Source of the DNA: Lysobacter sp.
GTDB taxonomy: Bacteria > Pseudomonadota > Gammaproteobacteria > Xanthomonadales > Xanthomonadaceae
Assembly: GCA_013141175.1 (NCBI GenBank)
Contig: JABFRN010000001.1
Location: 3,678,001 to 3,742,000 of the forward strand
DNA length: 64,000 nucleotides
Direction: 5' to 3'
A program made the translations under genes and the position numbers. The notes beneath the pieces are model-generated. The model saw only the letters and a list, made by a program, of their open reading frames with translations, ran no database searches and was not told the DNA's origin. Shown here piece after piece: positions 55,623-63,965 of this stretch; position 1 is the first letter of the stretch; every line of letters begins with the position of its first letter.

Positions 55623-57521
55623 TCAGCGCGTGCGTTCCGGCTTGCCGAGCCGCCGGTACAGCGTGCTGCGGTTGACGCCAAGCAATCGTGCTGCACGGGC
55701 GACGTTGCCGTCGCAGGCGGCGAGCGTTCCGCGCATCGCGGTTTCTTCCAGGGCATCGAGTTGCGCGAAGCCTCCGGCGGGTGGCGATGATGCCATCGCC
55801 TCGGATCTTGGCGTCTGCAAATAGCCGGGCAGGGCATCGATACCGATTTTCGCGCCATCGTCGTGCAGCGCAACGAGCGTGCGCAGGCACGCGACGAGCT
55901 GGCGCCAGTTGCCGGGCCAGGCGTACGCGGCAAGAGCGCGCTGAGCTTCGCTGGTCAACGAGCGGTGCTGCGCGATCCCGGACCACAGCGCATCGACGAT
56001 CATCGCGCGATCCGCGGCATTGCGTAGAGGCGCAAGCCGTTCGATGTGGTGCGCGACGCGATAGTAGAGATCGGCGCGGAAGCGACGTTCGGCGATGGCG
56101 GTTTCAAGATCGCAGTGGGTCGCGCAGATCAGGGCGAAATCGAGTTTCACCGGTTTTCCGCCGCCCAGCGGCGACAGTTCGCGTTCCTGCAGCACACGCA
56201 GCAGGCGGGGTTGCAGCGCGAGCGGCATATCGCCGATTTCGTCGAGGAACAGCACGCCGCCATTGGCCTGGCGCAGCAGTCCCGGATTCCCCTGGCGGCG
56301 CGCGCCGGTGAAGGCGCCTTCCTCGTAACCGAAGAGTTCGGCTTCGATCAGGCCTTCCGGAAGCGCGGCGCAGTTCACCGCAACGAACGGCTGCCCGTGC
56401 CGCGCGCAGCGGCGGTGCAGTTCGCGGGCGAAGACCTCCTTGCCGGTGCCGGTTTCGCCAACGACCAGTACCGGCAATTCGGCATCGAGTACGCGGCAGG
56501 CGCGATCCAGCGCTGCGGTGATGGTGGCATCGAAGAGCGGTGCATCGATGGTGCGCATCGACGGCCGGGCAGTGCCGTGGGCATGAGCGCTGCGTGCCGG
56601 TGCGGGGGGTATGCCGATGCGTCGCGCCGTGTCGCTTGCGTCGATACGCCCGAACAGCGCACGCCCGAAGCGATCGCGCAGCACCCCATCGCGACGCAGC
56701 AGCGAAAGCGCATCGTCGAACAATCCGTCGTAGGTGGCATGGCCGAGATCGTCGCGCTGCAGGTCGAGCAGCGCCAGGCCGGCCTGATTCGCGGCGACGA
56801 GTTTGCCCGCGCGGAAGGCGAGCAGGCCTTCGCGCGCAGAGCCGAGCAGGGTGGGATCGCGATGCAGGCGGAGCAGTTCGCAGTCGTCGATGCCGTCGTC
56901 GAAATAGCGGTGCTCGATATTCGCGACCGCCATCCGTACCAGTCCCAGCGCGTGCAGATGCTGGGCGCGGGAGTCGCCGGTGATGTCGAGCACGCCGACG
57001 AGCTGGCCGTACGGGTCGTGGATGGGTGTCGCGTTGCAGGTGAGGATGCCGTGGGTGGCGCGGTAGTGCTCGCTGCCGCGCACTTCCACTGCGCGGCGTT
57101 CGACGATCGCGGTGCCGATGGCGTTGGTGCCGACCTGCGCCTCGTTCCAGCAGGTGCCCGGCATCAGTGCGACGCGTCCTGCCTTGTCGAGGAACTGCGG
57201 ATGCCCGGCGGCGTCGAGCACCCATCCCGTGTCGTCGGTCAGCACCACGATGCTGCGGCTGGCATCGGCGTCGCTGGACAGGCTGTCGAGTTCCGCGCGG
57301 GCGAGTCGCCACAGCCGCTCGTTGCGTTCGCGCATCTCGCGCAGGCGCGCGTCGGGAATCGGTTCGATCGATGGCGAACCTTCGGCGGGCAAGCCCAAGC
57401 GACGGCAGCGCTGCCACGACTGCAGGATGGTCTTAGGCACTTCCGATGGCGCGACATTGCCGCGCTCGAAGAACGCGCGCCGCGCTTGCGAGAAATCCGT
57501 GCTGCTTTGAATCCGGGACAT
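55623..57521 (-). CDS. AcoR-like sigma-54-dependent activator
   Basis: A 632-residue enhancer-binding protein. The N-terminal sensor region contains a GAF-type domain (about 75-205, with GTCWNEAQVGTNAIGTAI, the AcoR/GAF hallmark). The central AAA+ domain has Walker A GETGTGKE (355-362), the sigma-54 contact loop GAFTGA (402-407) and Walker B GGVLFLDEIGDM. A Fis-type HTH ends the protein (ARAARLLGVNRSTLYRRL). The ATG at 57521 has GGAGG 5 bases upstream. It is divergent from an aldehyde dehydrogenase gene with a -24/-12 promoter, its evident target. The inducer is unknown (acetoin, alcohols or aldehydes by analogy). Confidence 0.93.
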   Translation of the reverse strand: MSRIQSSTDFSQARRAFFERGNVAPSEVPKTILQSWQRCRRLGLPAEGSPSIEPIPDARLREMRERNERLWRLARAELDSLSSDADASRSIVVLTDDTGWVLDAAGHPQFLDKAGRVALMPGTCWNEAQVGTNAIGTAIVERRAVEVRGSEHYRATHGILTCNATPIHDPYGQLVGVLDITGDSRAQHLHALGLVRMAVANIEHRYFDDGIDDCELLRLHRDPTLLGSAREGLLAFRAGKLVAANQAGLALLDLQRDDLGHATYDGLFDDALSLLRRDGVLRDRFGRALFGRIDASDTARRIGIPPAPARSAHAHGTARPSMRTIDAPLFDATITAALDRACRVLDAELPVLVVGETGTGKEVFARELHRRCARHGQPFVAVNCAALPEGLIEAELFGYEEGAFTGARRQGNPGLLRQANGGVLFLDEIGDMPLALQPRLLRVLQERELSPLGGGKPVKLDFALICATHCDLETAIAERRFRADLYYRVAHHIERLAPLRNAADRAMIVDALWSGIAQHRSLTSEAQRALAAYAWPGNWRQLVACLRTLVALHDDGAKIGIDALPGYLQTPRSEAMASSPPAGGFAQLDALEETAMRGTLAACDGNVARAARLLGVNRSTLYRRLGKPERTR

Positions 57522-57531
57522 CGTGCCTCCA

Positions 57532-57548
57532 TGTCGCAAAATGCGACA
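57532..57548. promoter_or_regulatory. Upstream activator site 1, TGTCGCA-N3-TGCGACA
   Basis: A perfect 7-base-arm palindrome 141 bases upstream of the -24 element, next to the activator's own start. The position suits enhancer-binding by the AcoR-like protein and possible autorepression. Confidence 0.6.
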
Positions 57549-57607
57549 GCCGTTGCGACGGCCGTAGCAATAAACACCACAAACCGCGACGCGGCGCAAT
57601 CGGGGAA

Positions 57608-57624
57608 TGTTGTGCATTGCAACA
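57608..57624. promoter_or_regulatory. Upstream activator site 2, TGTTG-N7-CAACA
   Basis: It has the same 17-base length and outer pattern (TGTYG...CRACA, TGC in the right half) as site 1. It lies 65 bases above the -24 element; a further TGTCGCA half-site follows at 57630-57636. Confidence 0.5.
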
Positions 57625-57688
57625 TCGATTGTCGCAAGTGCTCGTCAATGCTGGAATCCGTCCATGCTGCAATGCGTCAACCGTGAAT

Positions 57689-57704
57689 TGGCACCGGACT
57701 TGCA
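57689..57704 (+). promoter_or_regulatory. Sigma-54 promoter of the aldehyde dehydrogenase operon
   Basis: TGGCAC-CGGAC-TTGCA matches the -24/-12 consensus TGGCAC-N5-TTGCW in every position. It ends 33 bases before the ATG at 57738. Confidence 0.88.
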
Positions 57705-57737
57705 GTTGGTAAGGACACAGTCCACACGGAGTCCGCC

Positions 57738-59261
57738 ATGAACGCTCTCGCAAAACCGAACAGTCACGACCACACCGCGATCTTCAAACCGCAGTACGAC
57801 AACTACATCGGCGGCAAGTGGGTGGCGCCGCACAGCGGCGAATACTTCGACAACATCACCCCGATCACCGGCAAGGTCTTCACCCGCATCGCACGCTCGA
57901 ACAAGGACGACATCGAAGCCGCGCTCGACGCCGCGCACGCCGCCAAGGACGCCTGGGGCAAGACCACCACCACCGAACGCGCGAACATCCTCAACCGGAT
58001 CGCAGACCGCATCGAACAGAATCTCGACGTGCTGGCCCACGCCGAAACCTGGGACAACGGCAAGCCGATCCGCGAGACGATGAATGCCGACGTGCCGCTG
58101 ATGGCCGATCACTTCCGCTATTTCGCCGGCGCGGTCCGCGCGCAGGAAGGCAGCCTCAGCGAGATCGATCACGACACCATCGCCTATCACTTCCACGAAC
58201 CGCTGGGCGTGGTCGGCCAGATCATCCCGTGGAACTTCCCGATGCTGATGGCGGCGTGGAAGCTCGCGCCGGCATTGGCTGCGGGCAACTGCGTGGTGCT
58301 CAAGCCGGCCGAACAGACGCCGGCCAGCATTCTGGTGCTGATGGAAATCATCGGCGACCTGCTGCCGCCGGGCGTGCTCAACGTCGTCAACGGTTTCGGT
58401 CTGGAAGCCGGCAAGCCGCTGGCATCGAGCCCGCGCATCGCCAAGATCGCGTTCACCGGCGAAACCACCACCGGCCGCCTGATCATGCAGTACGCCAGCC
58501 AGAACCTGATTCCGGTGACGCTGGAACTCGGCGGCAAGTCGCCGAACATCTTCTTCGCCGATGTGATGGCCGAAGACGACGATTTCCTCGACAAGGCGGT
58601 GGAAGGCTTCGTGCTGTTCGCGTTCAACCAGGGCGAAGTCTGCACCTGTCCGTCGCGCGCGCTGATCCACGAATCGATCTACGAAAAGTTCATGGAGCGG
58701 GTGATCGTGCGGATTGCCGCGATCAAGCAGGGCGATCCGCTCGACCCGAGCACCATGGTCGGCGCGCAGGCATCCAGCGAACAGTTGGAGAAGATCCTCA
58801 GCTATATCGATATCGGCAGGCAGGAAGGCGCCGAAGTGCTGATCGGCGGCGAGCGCAACGTGCTCGGCGGCGACCTTGCCGGCGGCTATTACGTGAAGCC
58901 GACGGTGTTCAAGGGCCACAACAGGATGCGCGTCTTCCAGGAGGAAATCTTCGGGCCGGTGGTGTCGGTCACCACGTTCAAGACCGAAGAGGAAGCGCTG
59001 CAGATCGCCAACGACACGCTGTACGGCCTGGGTGCGGGCATCTGGAGCCGCGATGCCAGCCGCCTGTATCGCGTCGGCCGCGCCATCCAGGCCGGCCGCG
59101 TTTGGACGAACTGCTATCACGCGTATCCGGCGCACGCCGCGTTCGGCGGATACAAGCAATCCGGTATCGGCCGCGAGAACCACAAGATGATGCTGGACCA
59201 CTATCAGCAGACCAAGAACCTGCTGGTGAGCTATTCGCCGAAGGCGCTGGGCTTCTTCTGA
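57738..59261 (+). CDS. NAD-dependent aldehyde dehydrogenase (AcoD/ExaC type)
   Basis: A 507-residue aldehyde dehydrogenase. The oxyanion/active-site motifs are IPWNFPM (about 163-169), general base Glu263 (LELGGKSPN) and nucleophile Cys302 ([11 protein letters not shown]). The double Cys (C302, C304) is typical of the acetaldehyde/AcoD/ExaC subgroup used in ethanol or acetoin breakdown. It is controlled by the adjacent sigma-54 promoter and divergent activator. A DUF779 gene follows after 48 bases. Confidence 0.93.
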
Positions 59262-59309
59262 TCCGATGTCGCCGCCGGGCCTCGTGCCCGGCGGCGTTGG
59301 AGACACGAC

Positions 59310-59687
59310 ATGCCCGATCCGCCGCTGCAGGTGATGGCGACGTTGAGTGCGCTGCAATTGATCGACAAGCTGCGCGCGCGCCACGGCGCGCTGATGTTCC
59401 ACCAGTCCGGGGGCTGCTGCGACGGTTCGTCGCCGATGTGCTTCCCGGAGGGCGAATTCATCGTCGGCGACAACGATGTCTGCCTGGGCGAAATCGGCGG
59501 TGCGTCGTTCTACATCAGCCGGCCGCAGTTCGAGTATTGGAAACACACGCAGCTGATCATCGATGTCGTCGAAGGGCGCGGCGGCATGTTTTCCCTGGAA
59601 AACGGCGAGGGTGTGCGCTTCCTGGTGCGCTCGAGGCTGTTCGCGGACGACGAATTCGCGGCGTTGGAGGCGGCAGGTCGGGTCTGA
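59310..59687 (+). CDS. DUF779 protein
   Basis: A 125-residue protein of the DUF779 family with the conserved Cys-rich segment HQSGGCCDGSSPMCFPEGEF (about 32-51) and YISRPQFEYWKHTQLIIDV. The cluster of Cys could bind metal. DUF779 genes regularly sit beside AcoD/ExaC-type aldehyde dehydrogenases, as here, which suggests an accessory or maturation role, but none is proven as far as I know. Confidence 0.85.
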   Translation: MPDPPLQVMATLSALQLIDKLRARHGALMFHQSGGCCDGSSPMCFPEGEFIVGDNDVCLGEIGGASFYISRPQFEYWKHTQLIIDVVEGRGGMFSLENGEGVRFLVRSRLFADDEFAALEAAGRV

Positions 59688-59705: not shown

Positions 59706-60878
59706 TCAGGCCTCCACGGTAGCGATGAGGTCCAGATCCGCTGGATCGGCGGCGCGCTGCGCCCAGAAGCCCGATTCCGGCCACCGCTGTTCCATGCGGT
59801 AGAACGCGACCAGCCGTTCGCGATAGACGCGATGGATATCGAGGAGATGATCCGCGTAGCGCGAAAGCGCATCCGCATCGCCTTTCCCGCATTCGATGAT
59901 CGCCTGCGCGGCACGCAGACCGGTGTACAGCGCGTTGGAGATGCCTTTCGATGACAACGGGTCGAAGGCGAGCGCGGCATCGCCCACGGCGAGCCAGCGT
60001 TGCCCGTCTTCAGGCACGCCTACGGGCCGATCGAGATGATGGCTCGACGCGTCCGCGCCTTGCGGGGGCGACGACGGTCTGTAGCCATGCTCTTCGCACA
60101 GCGCGCGCATGCGCGGAGCGGCCTGCAGCACGCTCCACAACCCTTCGCGCGTGAGCACGGTGCGGCGGTCGGCGAGATCCGTATTGCAGAGGAAAGAAAC
60201 CAGGCGCTCGCGCGAGGGCAACAGCACGCTGTACCACCAGCCGTGCTCGACGGCTTCGATCCAGGTACGGCCATCCCGATCGGTATCCATGTCGCTGCGC
60301 AGGCGCATGTGGAAGGCGAGCAGCCGGTCGTATTCGATCCGTTCGGCGCCGAGCTGGCGCGCAAGCGTGGCCGGTCGCCCGGTGGCGTCGATCAGCCATC
60401 GGCATTCGATGGCGTCCTCCGTACCCCGCGTGCGCAGCTGAAGGTGGTAGCGCCCCTCGTTCGAAGCCGATGCGATCAGCGACAGTTTCGCATCGCGCAC
60501 GATCTCCGCGCCCGATGCGCGTGCGTGGTCGAGCAGTGCCGCGTCGAAGCGCAAGCGGTCCAGCTGCAGGCCATGACCGTGCAGTTGGAACATGAAGTCG
60601 TTGGCGCGCGGTGCGTCGTCGCCCCAGAACGCGAGCGTGCCATGGCTGGCGCGGTGGCCGTCGGCGAGCACGCGTTCGAGCGCGCCGAGATCGCGCAACA
60701 GATGGCGTGCCGATGGCGGCAGACCTTCGCCGACCTTGTACTTGCCGTTCTGCAGCCCCCGCGCACTGCCGGCATCGGCCAGCAGTACGCGAAGTCCGGC
60801 GCGTGCGAGCACGGTCGCTGCGGCGGCCCCGGCCGGGCCGCCGCCTGCGATCGCGACATCGTAGACACTTGCGCCCAC
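59706..60878 (-). CDS. lodB: LodB-like FAD-dependent maturation protein
   Basis: A 390-residue flavoprotein of the tryptophan-halogenase/geranylgeranyl-reductase fold. FAD motif AGGGPAG (11-17), a central RWLIDATGR and a late GDAALAFDPLSSKGISNAL block are present; the halogenase WxWxIP motif is absent. It starts at GTG 60878, 3 bases after the upstream stop, with no strong ribosome site, so it is coupled to the lodA-like gene. By analogy with Marinomonas LodB it should create the tryptophylquinone cofactor in its partner. Confidence 0.82.
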   Translation of the reverse strand: MGASVYDVAIAGGGPAGAAAATVLARAGLRVLLADAGSARGLQNGKYKVGEGLPPSARHLLRDLGALERVLADGHRASHGTLAFWGDDAPRANDFMFQLHGHGLQLDRLRFDAALLDHARASGAEIVRDAKLSLIASASNEGRYHLQLRTRGTEDAIECRWLIDATGRPATLARQLGAERIEYDRLLAFHMRLRSDMDTDRDGRTWIEAVEHGWWYSVLLPSRERLVSFLCNTDLADRRTVLTREGLWSVLQAAPRMRALCEEHGYRPSSPPQGADASSHHLDRPVGVPEDGQRWLAVGDAALAFDPLSSKGISNALYTGLRAAQAIIECGKGDADALSRYADHLLDIHRVYRERLVAFYRMEQRWPESGFWAQRAADPADLDLIATVEA

Positions 60879-60881
60879 GTG

Positions 60882-63800
60882 TCAGTCGTCGCGTCTGTGG
60901 TGATGACGGACCGGCAACGGTGCCTGCTGCGCATCCTCCCGACTCTCGAAGTTGGCCGCCTGCGGCAGCGGTCGCGACTTGGGATGCGCCTTGAGATTCG
61001 CTTCGCCAGTCAACGCGGCTTTCAGCATCGGCTTGGCCTGCGCGGCTGCGCTCATGCTTGATGCATCCGCCGGATCCACATCGGGGCCGTACGACGCCGC
61101 CATCATCGTTTCGGGAAAAGCGGCATCGCCTTCCACGCCCGGACGCACTTCGACCAGGCCCATCGAGCCGTAGATCCGCACCATCTGTTCCATCTGCCCG
61201 GCGGTCGTGCCGTGCAGCGGCTTGTTCCAACTGGTGCGGTTGGCGAACGCTTCGAGGCGTCGTGCCATCGGCTGCGTGGGATCGATGACGATCGCGTAAT
61301 CGTCGGCGGTCAGCACATGGTTCGGCACGCGTGCCGGCCAGAACGTCGGTGCGAACGGATCGTAGGCGGTGTCGTAACCGGCACGGCAGAACGCGGTATC
61401 GGCCTGCCATGGCAGGCCCATCCAACGGTTGATATCGCCCGGGGATTGGGCATGCAATGGGCCTTTCGACGAAAGCACCGTCGCCTGGTCCAGGGTTTTG
61501 CCGTACTTCGGCGCTTTCACGCCCTCCGGCCGCACGCGAATGCGGAACGGCTTGTGGTACAGCGTCAGATGCCGCATCGGCCAGGTCATTTCGCAGCCGG
61601 GATGGAAGGCATCGGCGAGGCAGAATTCCAGTGCGGCGCGATCGAGCATCGCCGGCTGCTGCGCCAGCGGCACTTTGTCGATGCTGGCCGGCGGTGCTTT
61701 GGCCGGATCCCAATCCGACTGGAAGTCGCCGCTCATCCAGCGCTGCAGGATGTCGTACTGGGTCTGGCTGACGCTCGCGTTCTGGCGCGGGCTGTCGCCG
61801 GCCGGCACTTCCATGGCATCGCCGTAGACCCATGGCCAGGGCAGTTGATTGCCGTCGGGCGGATTCGGCGGACGGAAACTGTTGAAGACCTGACGCCGCA
61901 GCTCGGCGTTGGGATCGTATTGTCCGGTGGGCACATGCGCCGACAACTGCGCGATGAACGCCGCGTTCTCGAAATCGTAGCGGCCGTTGTGGCCGAACAG
62001 TGTGGCGAAGCCCTGATTGACCCACTGCAGCCCCGAGAGTCGCTGCAGGATCGGATAGACATCGTCGGCGAACGAGATCTCCGCAGGCGCCTGCATCCAG
62101 CCGGCCTGCACGTACAGGTCGTAGAGCAGGTCGTACATGGTCCGCTCGGATTTCACCTGCGGCGCGTAGTTCGGCGGTGCGGTGACCACCCACGCCGATT
62201 CCACCGGAATGACGCGGCCTTCGATGTTCACCGTGGCCGAGACCGGCCCGTCGCAGGTGTCGTCGTACCAGTCGTCGGCATTGATGAAACCGTTGGGATC
62301 CTTGTCGTTGAAGATCGTCGCACCCGATGGCGAAGCGGAGACGCCGTGGCCACCGAGGAACAGCAGTCGCCCGCTGGCATCGGTCTGCAGTTCGCCGATC
62401 TTCACCGGCACACCGGTGAACGCGCCCGTGCACATCACCGGCGCGGTGTTCTTGCCGGCGATGGTGCGGGGGCCGGAATCGATCACCAGGGTGTCGCGCG
62501 CAGCGACTTTCGCGTTGCGCAAGGGCACGACGGCCGCAGCGGCTTCCGAGATATCCATCGCGATCTGCCACTGGTACCAGGCGGCCTTGCGATTGGCGAC
62601 GTGGACCGACCAGAGGATGTCGGCCGAATCGGCGGTGAGCTCGCGGACGATCTCGCCGCCTGCGTTGTAGCCGTAGATGCGGAACTGCGCGGCTTCGCGT
62701 TTGAGCGCGCCGCTGGCGTCGCGATAGAAACCGACCGGCTGCGGCGCGGGATCGGCGACCTGCGGGCCGACGTAGTACGCGTCGACGCTGTTGCCGACCC
62801 GCGCGATGCCGATCGCCGGATGGATCGCGGCGCGGACGATGCGGGTGTCCTTCGCGCCCGGATAATCCACGCCGGGCGCGTATTGCGACGGGCGCGGCAC
62901 GACCGGTTCCGCCTGCGGCACGCCGTTGACGTTGCGGCGGTTCGCCGCGGAGGCGCGATACACGACCTTGCGTGCGTCGGCGATGCTGCCCGCAGGCTTG
63001 TGGGCGGGCAGGGCGTGCCACGGGTTGTAGGCGAGATTCTCGCCGTAGGTGGACTGGCCGCGCGTGCCGGCGTCCTGCTGCGGCAGGATCAGCGTCGCGA
63101 CATGGATCGGCGGGCTGTCCGTTTCGCTCCAGCGCACGGTGGCGGCATCGAGCGGCATGTCCTCATCGTTGGTCTGGAACTGGACCAGGAATCGGAACCG
63201 CGCTTCGCCGCGCTGGATGCGCGCATGCAGATCGGCGCGCAGGTAGAACGGATCGCTGTAATCGGGCCCGCCATCCGCAGGCGGCACCGGATCGACCGGT
63301 TCGAGCTTGTATTTGACATGGCGGCCTTCGCCGAAGTGCGATGGCAGGACGCTCCAGTAATCGCTGACCAGCACCGACGGCACCTGCTTGGCCATGTCGT
63401 CGAGGATCTGCTGGGTCTTGGGGTGCTGACGCAGATAGTCGTCGCCCTTGCCGTGCAGCGACTGGCAGGTGAACTCGCACATGTCCCTGGCGGTATCGAC
63501 AAAGAACACGTCGTGGTTCTGCAGGATGAAATCGTGGGTCGTGGCGTCCTGGTCAGGCTCGAGCAGTTTTTCGCCATCGACGCCGAACAGCTTGATGCCG
63601 ATCCCCATCGTGCCCTTGATGTCGGGCCGGCCCGGCTGCACGTCGCTGGAGAAACGTACCCACATCGGATACTCCGGCGCCTGCGCGAACACGCCGACGC
63701 GCAGCGCTTCTGGCAGATCCGGCTCGATCACGAAACGTCCGTGCGCCACGCCGTGCAGGCGCAGGAACACCGGCCGTGTTGCGGGGTCGCGGCCCGCAGC

Positions 63801-63965
63801 CATGCCCACGCCCTGGAAATAATCGACGAACAGTTGTTTCAGGCCGGCGATCGGATCGCTGTCGCAGCAGCACGGGCTGGGCGGCAGGGTCGGCGGTAGT
63901 GTGATCGGTGTCGCCTTGCAATCGCTTGCAGCGTTGGACGCGGATGGATCTGTGGTGTTCGACAT
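60882..63965 (-). CDS. Catalase-like domain fused to LodA-like quinocofactor amino-acid oxidase
   Basis: A 1027-residue protein. Residues 1-40 are Pro/Ser/Thr-rich with CCC at 32-34. Residues about 40-345 resemble the y4iL-type catalase-family domain: RLHGVAHG (69-76, His71 as the distal-His candidate), VRFSSDVQPGRPDIKGTMG, HDFILQNHDVFFV, NPWHALP at 314-320. Residues about 375-960 match LodA (L-lysine 6-oxidase / glycine oxidase family): IHPAIGIARVGNS (381-393), then Cys782 (LEFC) and Trp853 (LPWQAD), spaced like the Cys516-Trp581 pair that forms cysteine tryptophylquinone in LodA. No export signal is seen. AGGGGAAG lies 7 bases before the ATG. Oxidase action yields an oxo-acid, ammonia and hydrogen peroxide. 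Confidence 0.85.
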   Translation of the reverse strand: MSNTTDPSASNAASDCKATPITLPPTLPPSPCCCDSDPIAGLKQLFVDYFQGVGMAAGRDPATRPVFLRLHGVAHGRFVIEPDLPEALRVGVFAQAPEYPMWVRFSSDVQPGRPDIKGTMGIGIKLFGVDGEKLLEPDQDATTHDFILQNHDVFFVDTARDMCEFTCQSLHGKGDDYLRQHPKTQQILDDMAKQVPSVLVSDYWSVLPSHFGEGRHVKYKLEPVDPVPPADGGPDYSDPFYLRADLHARIQRGEARFRFLVQFQTNDEDMPLDAATVRWSETDSPPIHVATLILPQQDAGTRGQSTYGENLAYNPWHALPAHKPAGSIADARKVVYRASAANRRNVNGVPQAEPVVPRPSQYAPGVDYPGAKDTRIVRAAIHPAIGIARVGNSVDAYYVGPQVADPAPQPVGFYRDASGALKREAAQFRIYGYNAGGEIVRELTADSADILWSVHVANRKAAWYQWQIAMDISEAAAAVVPLRNAKVAARDTLVIDSGPRTIAGKNTAPVMCTGAFTGVPVKIGELQTDASGRLLFLGGHGVSASPSGATIFNDKDPNGFINADDWYDDTCDGPVSATVNIEGRVIPVESAWVVTAPPNYAPQVKSERTMYDLLYDLYVQAGWMQAPAEISFADDVYPILQRLSGLQWVNQGFATLFGHNGRYDFENAAFIAQLSAHVPTGQYDPNAELRRQVFNSFRPPNPPDGNQLPWPWVYGDAMEVPAGDSPRQNASVSQTQYDILQRWMSGDFQSDWDPAKAPPASIDKVPLAQQPAMLDRAALEFCLADAFHPGCEMTWPMRHLTLYHKPFRIRVRPEGVKAPKYGKTLDQATVLSSKGPLHAQSPGDINRWMGLPWQADTAFCRAGYDTAYDPFAPTFWPARVPNHVLTADDYAIVIDPTQPMARRLEAFANRTSWNKPLHGTTAGQMEQMVRIYGSMGLVEVRPGVEGDAAFPETMMAASYGPDVDPADASSMSAAAQAKPMLKAALTGEANLKAHPKSRPLPQAANFESREDAQQAPLPVRHHHRRDD

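Follow-up and report, generated by a model that had tools for sequence, protein, structure and literature searches.

A catalase-fold domain with a predicted distal His-to-Phe replacement fused to a LodA-type quinoprotein oxidase in Lysobacter sp.

A catalase-like domain and a LodA-type oxidase on one chain

The stretch of Lysobacter sp. DNA analysed here (64,000 nucleotides (nt) of contig JABFRN010000001.1, positions 3678001-3742000; hereafter the window) contains a single uninterrupted frame of 1027 amino acids (aa), running on the minus strand from 63965 to 60882, in which a catalase-like domain precedes a quinoprotein oxidase of the LodA type, the cofactor of which is cysteine tryptophylquinone (CTQ). 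A first reading made from the letters of the window (the sequence-only reading) had assigned a catalase-family domain and a LodA domain to one frame at 60882-63965. Both are recovered from the 1027-aa frame, by Pfam LodA matches and a match to a catalase-related chain, and the extent was right; the strand had been left unstated, and the gene lies on the minus strand, the plus-strand translation containing stops. A contig scan matched 215 stretches, 210 of which encode a relative, and among the best 80 loci, which were kept, 68 are fused (one of them, L064, frame-broken) and 12 unfused; because the query was fused, two of the six search peptides came from the catalase half and the best 80 were retained, this sample is tilted to fusions. 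Since 68 of the 80 related loci have both domains, including a homologue (L033) 95% identical to the window protein, the joining of two genes by an assembly error, which the sequence-only reading had named as its possible undoing, is excluded and the fusion is real. The window genome (4.16 Mb, single contig) holds this one LodA_N match.

Table 1. Features of the fused gene and its downstream partner in the window
Feature	Position	Strand	Evidence
Fused gene, 1027 aa: N-terminal catalase-fold domain and C-terminal LodA-type quinoprotein oxidase	60882..63965	minus	frame and domain matches
Shine-Dalgarno-like stretch AGGGGAAG	immediately 5' of the fused-gene ATG	minus	read directly from the DNA
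Catalase-fold domain, residues ~38-350	62916..63854	minus	phmmer and profile matches, AlphaFold2 blocks
Linker, residues ~351-377	62835..62915	minus	between the two domain matches; pLDDT blocks 70-78
LodA_N (PF17990), residues 382-594	62184..62822	minus	Pfam E 3.3e-76
LodA_C (PF18417), residues 725-876, contains the CTQ residues	61338..61793	minus	Pfam E 9.7e-39
Phe67 at the catalase distal-His position (KatE H128)	63765..63767	minus	Phe in 72/72 fusions, 63/63 with near-copies merged
Tyr336, predicted proximal heme ligand (KatE Y415)	62958..62960	minus	Tyr in 63/63 fusions
Cys860, predicted CTQ cysteine (LodA C516)	61386..61388	minus	Cys in 22/22 LodA-like, 38/38 fused
Trp876, predicted CTQ tryptophan (LodA W581)	61338..61340	minus	Trp in 22/22 LodA-like, 38/38 fused
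Asp856, active-site Asp (PlGoxA D678)	61398..61400	minus	alignment; D678 named in structure entry titles
GoxB/LodB-type flavoprotein maturase gene, 390 aa, 3 nt downstream of the fused gene	59706..60878	minus	curated models

Residues 89-355 of the protein match (phmmer, E 1.6e-5) chain 3e4w/3e4y, deposited under the molecule name 'Putative uncharacterized protein', which we take to be the catalase-related minicatalase of Mycobacterium avium. A domain profile of 12 rows (10 fused, 2 not on a LodA chain) matches 3e4w (9.6e-17), true catalases (4qol, 1.4e-10; human catalase 1dgf, 1.9e-6) and the coral allene oxide synthase (cAOS) 1u5u (1.6e-6), as well as 3dy5. The profile therefore links the domain to solved catalases, homologues whose absence would have told against the sequence-only reading; the window protein itself is not matched by the Pfam model Catalase (PF00199) at E <= 0.1. 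The label y4iL (cd08152) for the N-terminal domain comes from that reading and from the part of PMC4417212 drawn on here. In the AlphaFold2 model of the whole protein (38-row alignment; mean predicted local distance difference test (pLDDT) 77.9, predicted template modelling score (pTM) 0.62), ten-residue blocks of the catalase-fold domain mostly reach 84-94 pLDDT, with dips to 65 at residues 51-70 and 341-350. All 50 matches listed by Foldseek for the full model were GoxA or LodA, so that the catalase half is placed by sequence only. Two further relatives of the domain were encountered. One, of 336 aa, is encoded as a separate protein in the window genome (G000:C1:2142098-2143009; L143, L145); it has both the distal His and the proximal Tyr and shares ~34% identity with the fused domain. 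The other, at L118:928-3885 (residues ~192-486, distal His kept), is joined to an animal-type heme peroxidase (PF03098, E 6.4e-69), giving the catalase-like domain a second type of fusion partner.

The full LodA domain spans residues ~378-960, and both of its Pfam parts score over the curated cut-offs (LodA_N 256.4 bits against 26.3, LodA_C 132.9 against 25). The best solved folds for the model were GoxA 6byw (E 1.3e-29) and LodA 3wev (3.6e-25). The CTQ residues of LodA are given as C516 and W581 in the part of PMC4417212 used; counted on printed alignments, they are residues 536 and 601 of the tagged chain 2ymw, where the Cys lies inside a WQADFFNC stretch and the Trp is the second W of YWWPP. 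They align with C860 and W876, both invariant in the rows compared (Table 1). This alignment rules out the pair C782/W853 favoured by the sequence-only reading: C782 is Cys in 18 of the 22 LodA-like rows and 37 of the 38 fusions, and is not family-invariant, while W853 is the Trp of a conserved WQxD motif. F316, H583 and D678 of Pseudoalteromonas luteoviolacea GoxA (PlGoxA; numbered by counting, with mutant names taken from structure entry titles) correspond to F560, H788 and D856. D856 is invariant too in the 22 LodA-like proteins and 38 fusions aligned; the H788 column of the 22 LodA-like rows reads His 16, Cys 3, Ser 3, with Cys in LodA itself. The matches at H788 and F560 place the active site of the window oxidase, as judged by alignment, nearer to GoxA than to LodA, yet the protein stays below either NCBIfam equivalog cut-off (405.1 of 750 bits for GoxA, 172.1 of 600 for LodA).

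The predicted heme pocket

Pocket residues were assigned by reference to E. coli KatE, in which H128, S167, N201, R411 and Y415 were checked. R64, R104, S106, R332, Y336 and R343 of the fused domain align with KatE R125, R165, S167, R411, Y415 and R422, and F67 takes the place of H128, the distal His. Q149 falls on N201 (the distal Asn) and N150 on N202, a one-residue shift being possible. Among 63 non-redundant fusions, R64, F67, H71, R104, Q149, N150, Y336 and R343 are each found in 63/63 and R332 in 62/63. The 72 fused rows of Table 1 are 75 frames minus L001, L013 and L035 (taken as duplicates) and the frame-broken L064, plus the window protein; near-copies were merged at 95% identity (127 rows to 91; 92 fused and 59 other frames to 63 and 56), and pocket counts drop rows covering fewer than 230 model positions. 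The 56 other relatives lie off a LodA chain (one, L118, being the fusion to a different enzyme). Their F67 column is His in 52, Asn in 3 and Gln in 1, the Y336 column Tyr in 51, Met in 3, Asp in 1 and a gap in 1, and the R64 and R104 columns are Arg in 56/56. The three sequences with Met at the proximal-Tyr column are L031, L032 and L116, in which the heme may have a different ligand or be absent.

Regular expressions, applied without reference to the multiple alignment, gave the same picture. Of 93 fused frames, 92 contain R..F...HG and none has R..H.K within its first 420 residues; among 61 other frames, 55 have R..H.K and two show the fused pattern, each of these being a short fragment (the 155-aa leading part of the frame-broken L064, and L119 at 290 aa). 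In the part of PMC5617202 consulted, the heme Args of cAOS and catalase are mapped as R64, R102 and R360, the distal residues as H67 and N137 and the proximal ligand as Y353. The spacings of the fused domain equal these (3 from Arg to the distal residue, 7 from Tyr to Arg), and Y336 sits on helix 327-347 of the model. Y313 was considered as proximal ligand and set aside, its column being mostly Phe in the fusions and aligning with KatE F391; His71 was likewise considered as the distal His, for which the alignment with KatE and the other relatives gave no support.

Because the heme Arg and Tyr residues are kept, with the spacing of cAOS and catalase, the domain should hold heme by Tyr336; the sequence-only reading had allowed that any heme-binding position might be lacking, and the proximal Tyr and heme Args prove invariant or nearly so. 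Conversely, the distal pocket, as aligned, differs from the one in catalases and in the majority of the domain's own relatives. The altered residues do not vary, which argues for a selected function rather than decay. Without the histidine that a working catalase needs, the catalase-like half probably does not simply destroy peroxide, and the proposal of the sequence-only reading that it scavenges peroxide in place is weakened by Phe at the distal-His position in every fusion examined and Gln at that of the distal Asn.

A cysteine stands shortly before the first helix of the domain (as CCCD, CWD or CVDC) in 62 of the 63 non-redundant fusions, L067 being the exception, when any Cys 20-60 residues ahead of the R..F...HG motif is counted; in the window protein it falls within residues 32-34 (63864-63872, minus), and the rest of the N-terminus is variable.

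Neighbourhood, distribution and history

The gene downstream of the fused gene matches maturase_GoxB (E 4.7e-75) and LodB (4e-67), below both equivalog cut-offs. Of the loci with 1300 nt or more downstream, 61/61 fused and 11/11 unfused ones contain a similar gene (blastp E <= 1e-8; 64 of the 68 fused loci passed the span filter, 61 with room; of the 12 unfused, 11 had room), which is on the same strand and adjacent, within stop-to-stop limits, in 59 and 9 of them respectively. A wider conserved neighbourhood was sought and rejected: the maturase family, present in 68 loci, is followed by a 1156-aa frame that runs antisense to the oxidase (19 loci), and the other families listed occur in 10 or fewer. 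Upstream of the fused gene lies a divergent frame that by eye resembles tadA. At 55623-59687, convergent with the maturase gene, a sigma-54 activator with a GAF domain (minus) and an ExaC-type acetaldehyde dehydrogenase with DUF779 (plus) have the look of a standard cluster for alcohol and aldehyde oxidation. Six of the seven Acinetobacter loci (L046, L049, L051, L059, L062 and L064, at ~10.2-12.0 kb in each; not seen in L052) encode a separate catalase-like relative that retains the distal His and lies after the fused gene and its maturase, on the same strand.

This domain arrangement is already in print and common to many bacteria; the sequence-only reading knew of no described example but allowed that similar fusions might be found in databases. 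Table 3 of Campillo-Brocal et al. 2015 (PMC4417212), in the part used here, lists 21 LodA-like proteins of 963-1072 aa with an N-terminal pfam00199 match that also matches cd08152; all fall in group III, without forming a subgroup of their own, and no group III protein had been characterised. Two Table 3 strains recur among our fused loci, Cupriavidus sp. UYPR2.512 (L038, ~74-76% identical to the window protein and a row of the oxidase tree) and Tenacibaculum ovolyticum DSM 18103 (L076, merged with a near-copy); strain and length suggest that these are the very genes of the table. A search of the openly licensed literature found no characterised fused protein.

Fused rows of the oxidase tree carry the labels of Pseudomonadota, Bacteroidota, Myxococcota, Acidobacteriota, Planctomycetota, Cyanobacteriota and Bacillota. 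Counts within phyla are less tilted to fusions: LodA_N occurs in 12 of 398 Pseudomonadota genomes, one gene each, 2 of the 12 being fused (one of them the window's own), and in 8 of 296 Bacteroidota genomes (the phylum of L071), where 6 of 9 genes are fused, one of the six from the centre genome, which was chosen for having the fusion. Ten other genomes of the window's genus include two with a fused gene (G399, G401), four with unfused relatives only (G398, G405 and G407, 72-73% identity; G400, 54%) and four without a match, three of these being incomplete.

In the oxidase-domain tree (91 rows, 62 fused; like the other, built by a quick method), all fused proteins fall in a 77-row clade together with 15 unfused ones, and at least 8 state changes are needed, 5 of them forced by starred branches. 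In the heme-domain tree (63 fused, 56 others), a branch with Shimodaira-Hasegawa-like approximate likelihood ratio test (SH-aLRT) support of 100 has all the fused domains on the same side. Patristic distances in the two trees correlate (r = 0.95, 59 shared rows), and mean identity to the window protein is 54.1% for the catalase part and 53.8% for the LodA part (73 homologues, near-copies included). Unfused genes start just before the LodA domain, and no domain remnant was found in 21 unfused loci (best E 0.25). A separate catalase-like gene beside the unfused oxidases was considered, and none was present in the fetched flanks of 12 such loci, some of which are short. Since close unfused relatives are up to ~80% identical (for example the one in L043, at about that value), repeated loss of the heme half is suggested, and one fusion followed by several losses would be the simplest history. 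The scatter in the oxidase tree agrees with that of the fusions within group III in the available part of PMC4417212; losses would explain it.

Two odd loci deserve mention. At G426:C1:1945934-1946260, a 241-aa frame repeats the first 105 residues of the fused protein at 73% identity; this stray piece lies on a different contig from that genome's full fused gene. L156 (G627:C54:19182-19910) has its LodA_N match inside a 1464-aa frame, much longer than usual; the genome also holds L042 (Gemmataceae), and the fetched part shows no catalase-like domain.

Possible roles of the heme half and relation to known systems

In the explanation that we favour, to which with all its steps together we give a probability of about 0.5, the locus would be a two-gene operon for a group III LodA-type quinoprotein, and the fused protein a CTQ-dependent amine or amino-acid oxidase with a heme-binding, non-catalatic accessory domain. 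Going by conserved family residues, the GoxB/LodB-like flavoprotein would help to form CTQ from C860 and W876, and the LodA domain would oxidise a primary amine or amino acid, pass the electrons to O2 and release an aldehyde or keto acid, ammonia and H2O2. The catalase-fold domain would bind heme b via Tyr336, held by Arg64, Arg104 and Arg343. More tentatively, the replacement of the distal His by Phe67, with Gln149 aligned to the distal Asn, may mark a specialised accessory heme domain rather than a catalase, one that reacts with or senses the oxidase product, most likely H2O2, without disproportionating it, its chemistry being perhaps a slow peroxidase- or peroxygenase-like reaction with H2O2. 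The fusion would have arisen once, its halves evolving together, and several lineages would later have dropped the heme half; such losses would make the domain a modifier of the oxidase and not something that the oxidase needs. The two-step enzyme of the sequence-only reading may survive in a peroxidase- or peroxygenase-like form; against an obligate pair, oxidases up to ~80% identical do without the domain.

Several observations weigh against this explanation. Model block 61-70, which holds R64 and F67, reaches a pLDDT of only 65, and the distal-pocket assignment rests on sequence alignment. His71, four residues past F67 and conserved in every non-redundant fusion, is also His in 44 of the 56 other relatives, and might revive peroxide chemistry if it reached the iron. 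Model confidence is low near the CTQ residues (857-866, 868-874 and 876-878 below pLDDT 50), and the distance from heme to that site is not readable from it. As for the history, the underlying quick-method trees carry long-branch warnings, and labels and counts alone do not separate loss from gain or regain.

Among the alternatives, a domain without catalysis of its own, heme-bound or empty, that serves assembly, stability, localisation or regulation (for example as a sensor of peroxide or gas) is a possibility that we hold tentatively. It would suit the lost distal His and the absence of the domain from close relatives, and the Cys just ahead of the domain could be structural; the heme-holding residues are nevertheless kept, and conservation about equal to that of the oxidase is more than a simple scaffold needs. 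Doubtful, though overlapping with our favoured explanation as the strong form of its last step, is a two-step peroxygenase or peroxidase in which H2O2 from the quinone domain is handed to the heme and a second substrate oxidised. In the coral fusion of allene oxide synthase and lipoxygenase (AOS-LOX), an N-terminal catalase-related domain likewise uses a peroxide made by the C-terminal domain (as described in the part of PMC5617202 used); the order of parts is the same, 3dy5 is matched by the profile, the invariant altered pocket suggests selection for a particular chemistry, and L118 joins a related domain to a peroxidase. Conversely, cAOS keeps the distal His that the fused domain has lost, close homologues lack the catalase-like domain, and the neighbours, of which only the maturase is widely shared, suggest no second substrate. 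A cascade of the specific kind in which H2O2 from the CTQ oxidase is spent by a Tyr-ligated heme without distal His on a peroxygenase-type oxidation, possibly of the released aldehyde, we regard as unlikely; if true, an enzyme with the catalase fold would be doing its work with no distal His for acid-base chemistry.

It is quite unlikely that the heme domain is a true catalase which removes neighbouring H2O2 and thereby protects oxidase and cell. The catalase fold, proximal Tyr and heme-anchoring Args are conserved and amino acid oxidases do make H2O2 (PMC4417212, in the part used), but all 63 fusions have Phe for the distal His, the window protein escapes the Pfam Catalase model at the threshold given above, cAOS does not scavenge H2O2 even with its distal His (PMC5617202, likewise in part), and six of the seven Acinetobacter loci have a separate, His-bearing relative downstream. 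A role in building the CTQ cofactor, conceivable in that CTQ formation is oxidative and a heme would sit on the same chain, is very improbable: the same kind of maturase accompanies every fused and unfused locus with room for it, for which reason the flavoprotein seems sufficient without the heme domain.

What is new here is the corrected CTQ pair, the invariant replacement of the distal His by Phe and the history of a single fusion with repeated loss, the latter two as predicted from sequence comparison. That the distal His is sharply and invariably lost, although the residues which hold the heme remain, may interest specialists, and natural fused and unfused relatives ~70-80% identical would allow a direct test of what a CTQ oxidase gains from the heme half.

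Among solved proteins, the glycine oxidase GoxA of Pseudoalteromonas luteoviolacea (6byw) and LodA of Marinomonas mediterranea (2ymw, 3weu) share the oxidase fold and CTQ residues; they lack the catalase-like domain and are ~21-22% identical to the window protein in structural alignment. Chain 3e4w/3e4y, the best solved sequence relative of the N-terminal domain, shares the proximal Arg-x-x-x-Tyr pattern, but is a separate chain of 320 aa and distant in sequence. Coral AOS-LOX (1u5u, 3dy5; PMC5617202, as far as consulted) also places a catalase-related heme domain before a peroxide-making domain on one chain, and is the best precedent for the order of parts; its C-terminal partner is a lipoxygenase, and because it retains the distal His (H67) where the fused domain has Phe67, we read the likeness as one of layout and not of membership. 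The group III LodA fusions (PMC4417212) stand closest: the window protein shares their domain order, length, CTQ Cys and Trp and lodB-like partner, and adds to their list a member from a new species. The sections of that survey consulted make no comment on the missing distal His or on domain loss, and the role of the heme half is the question that the survey left.

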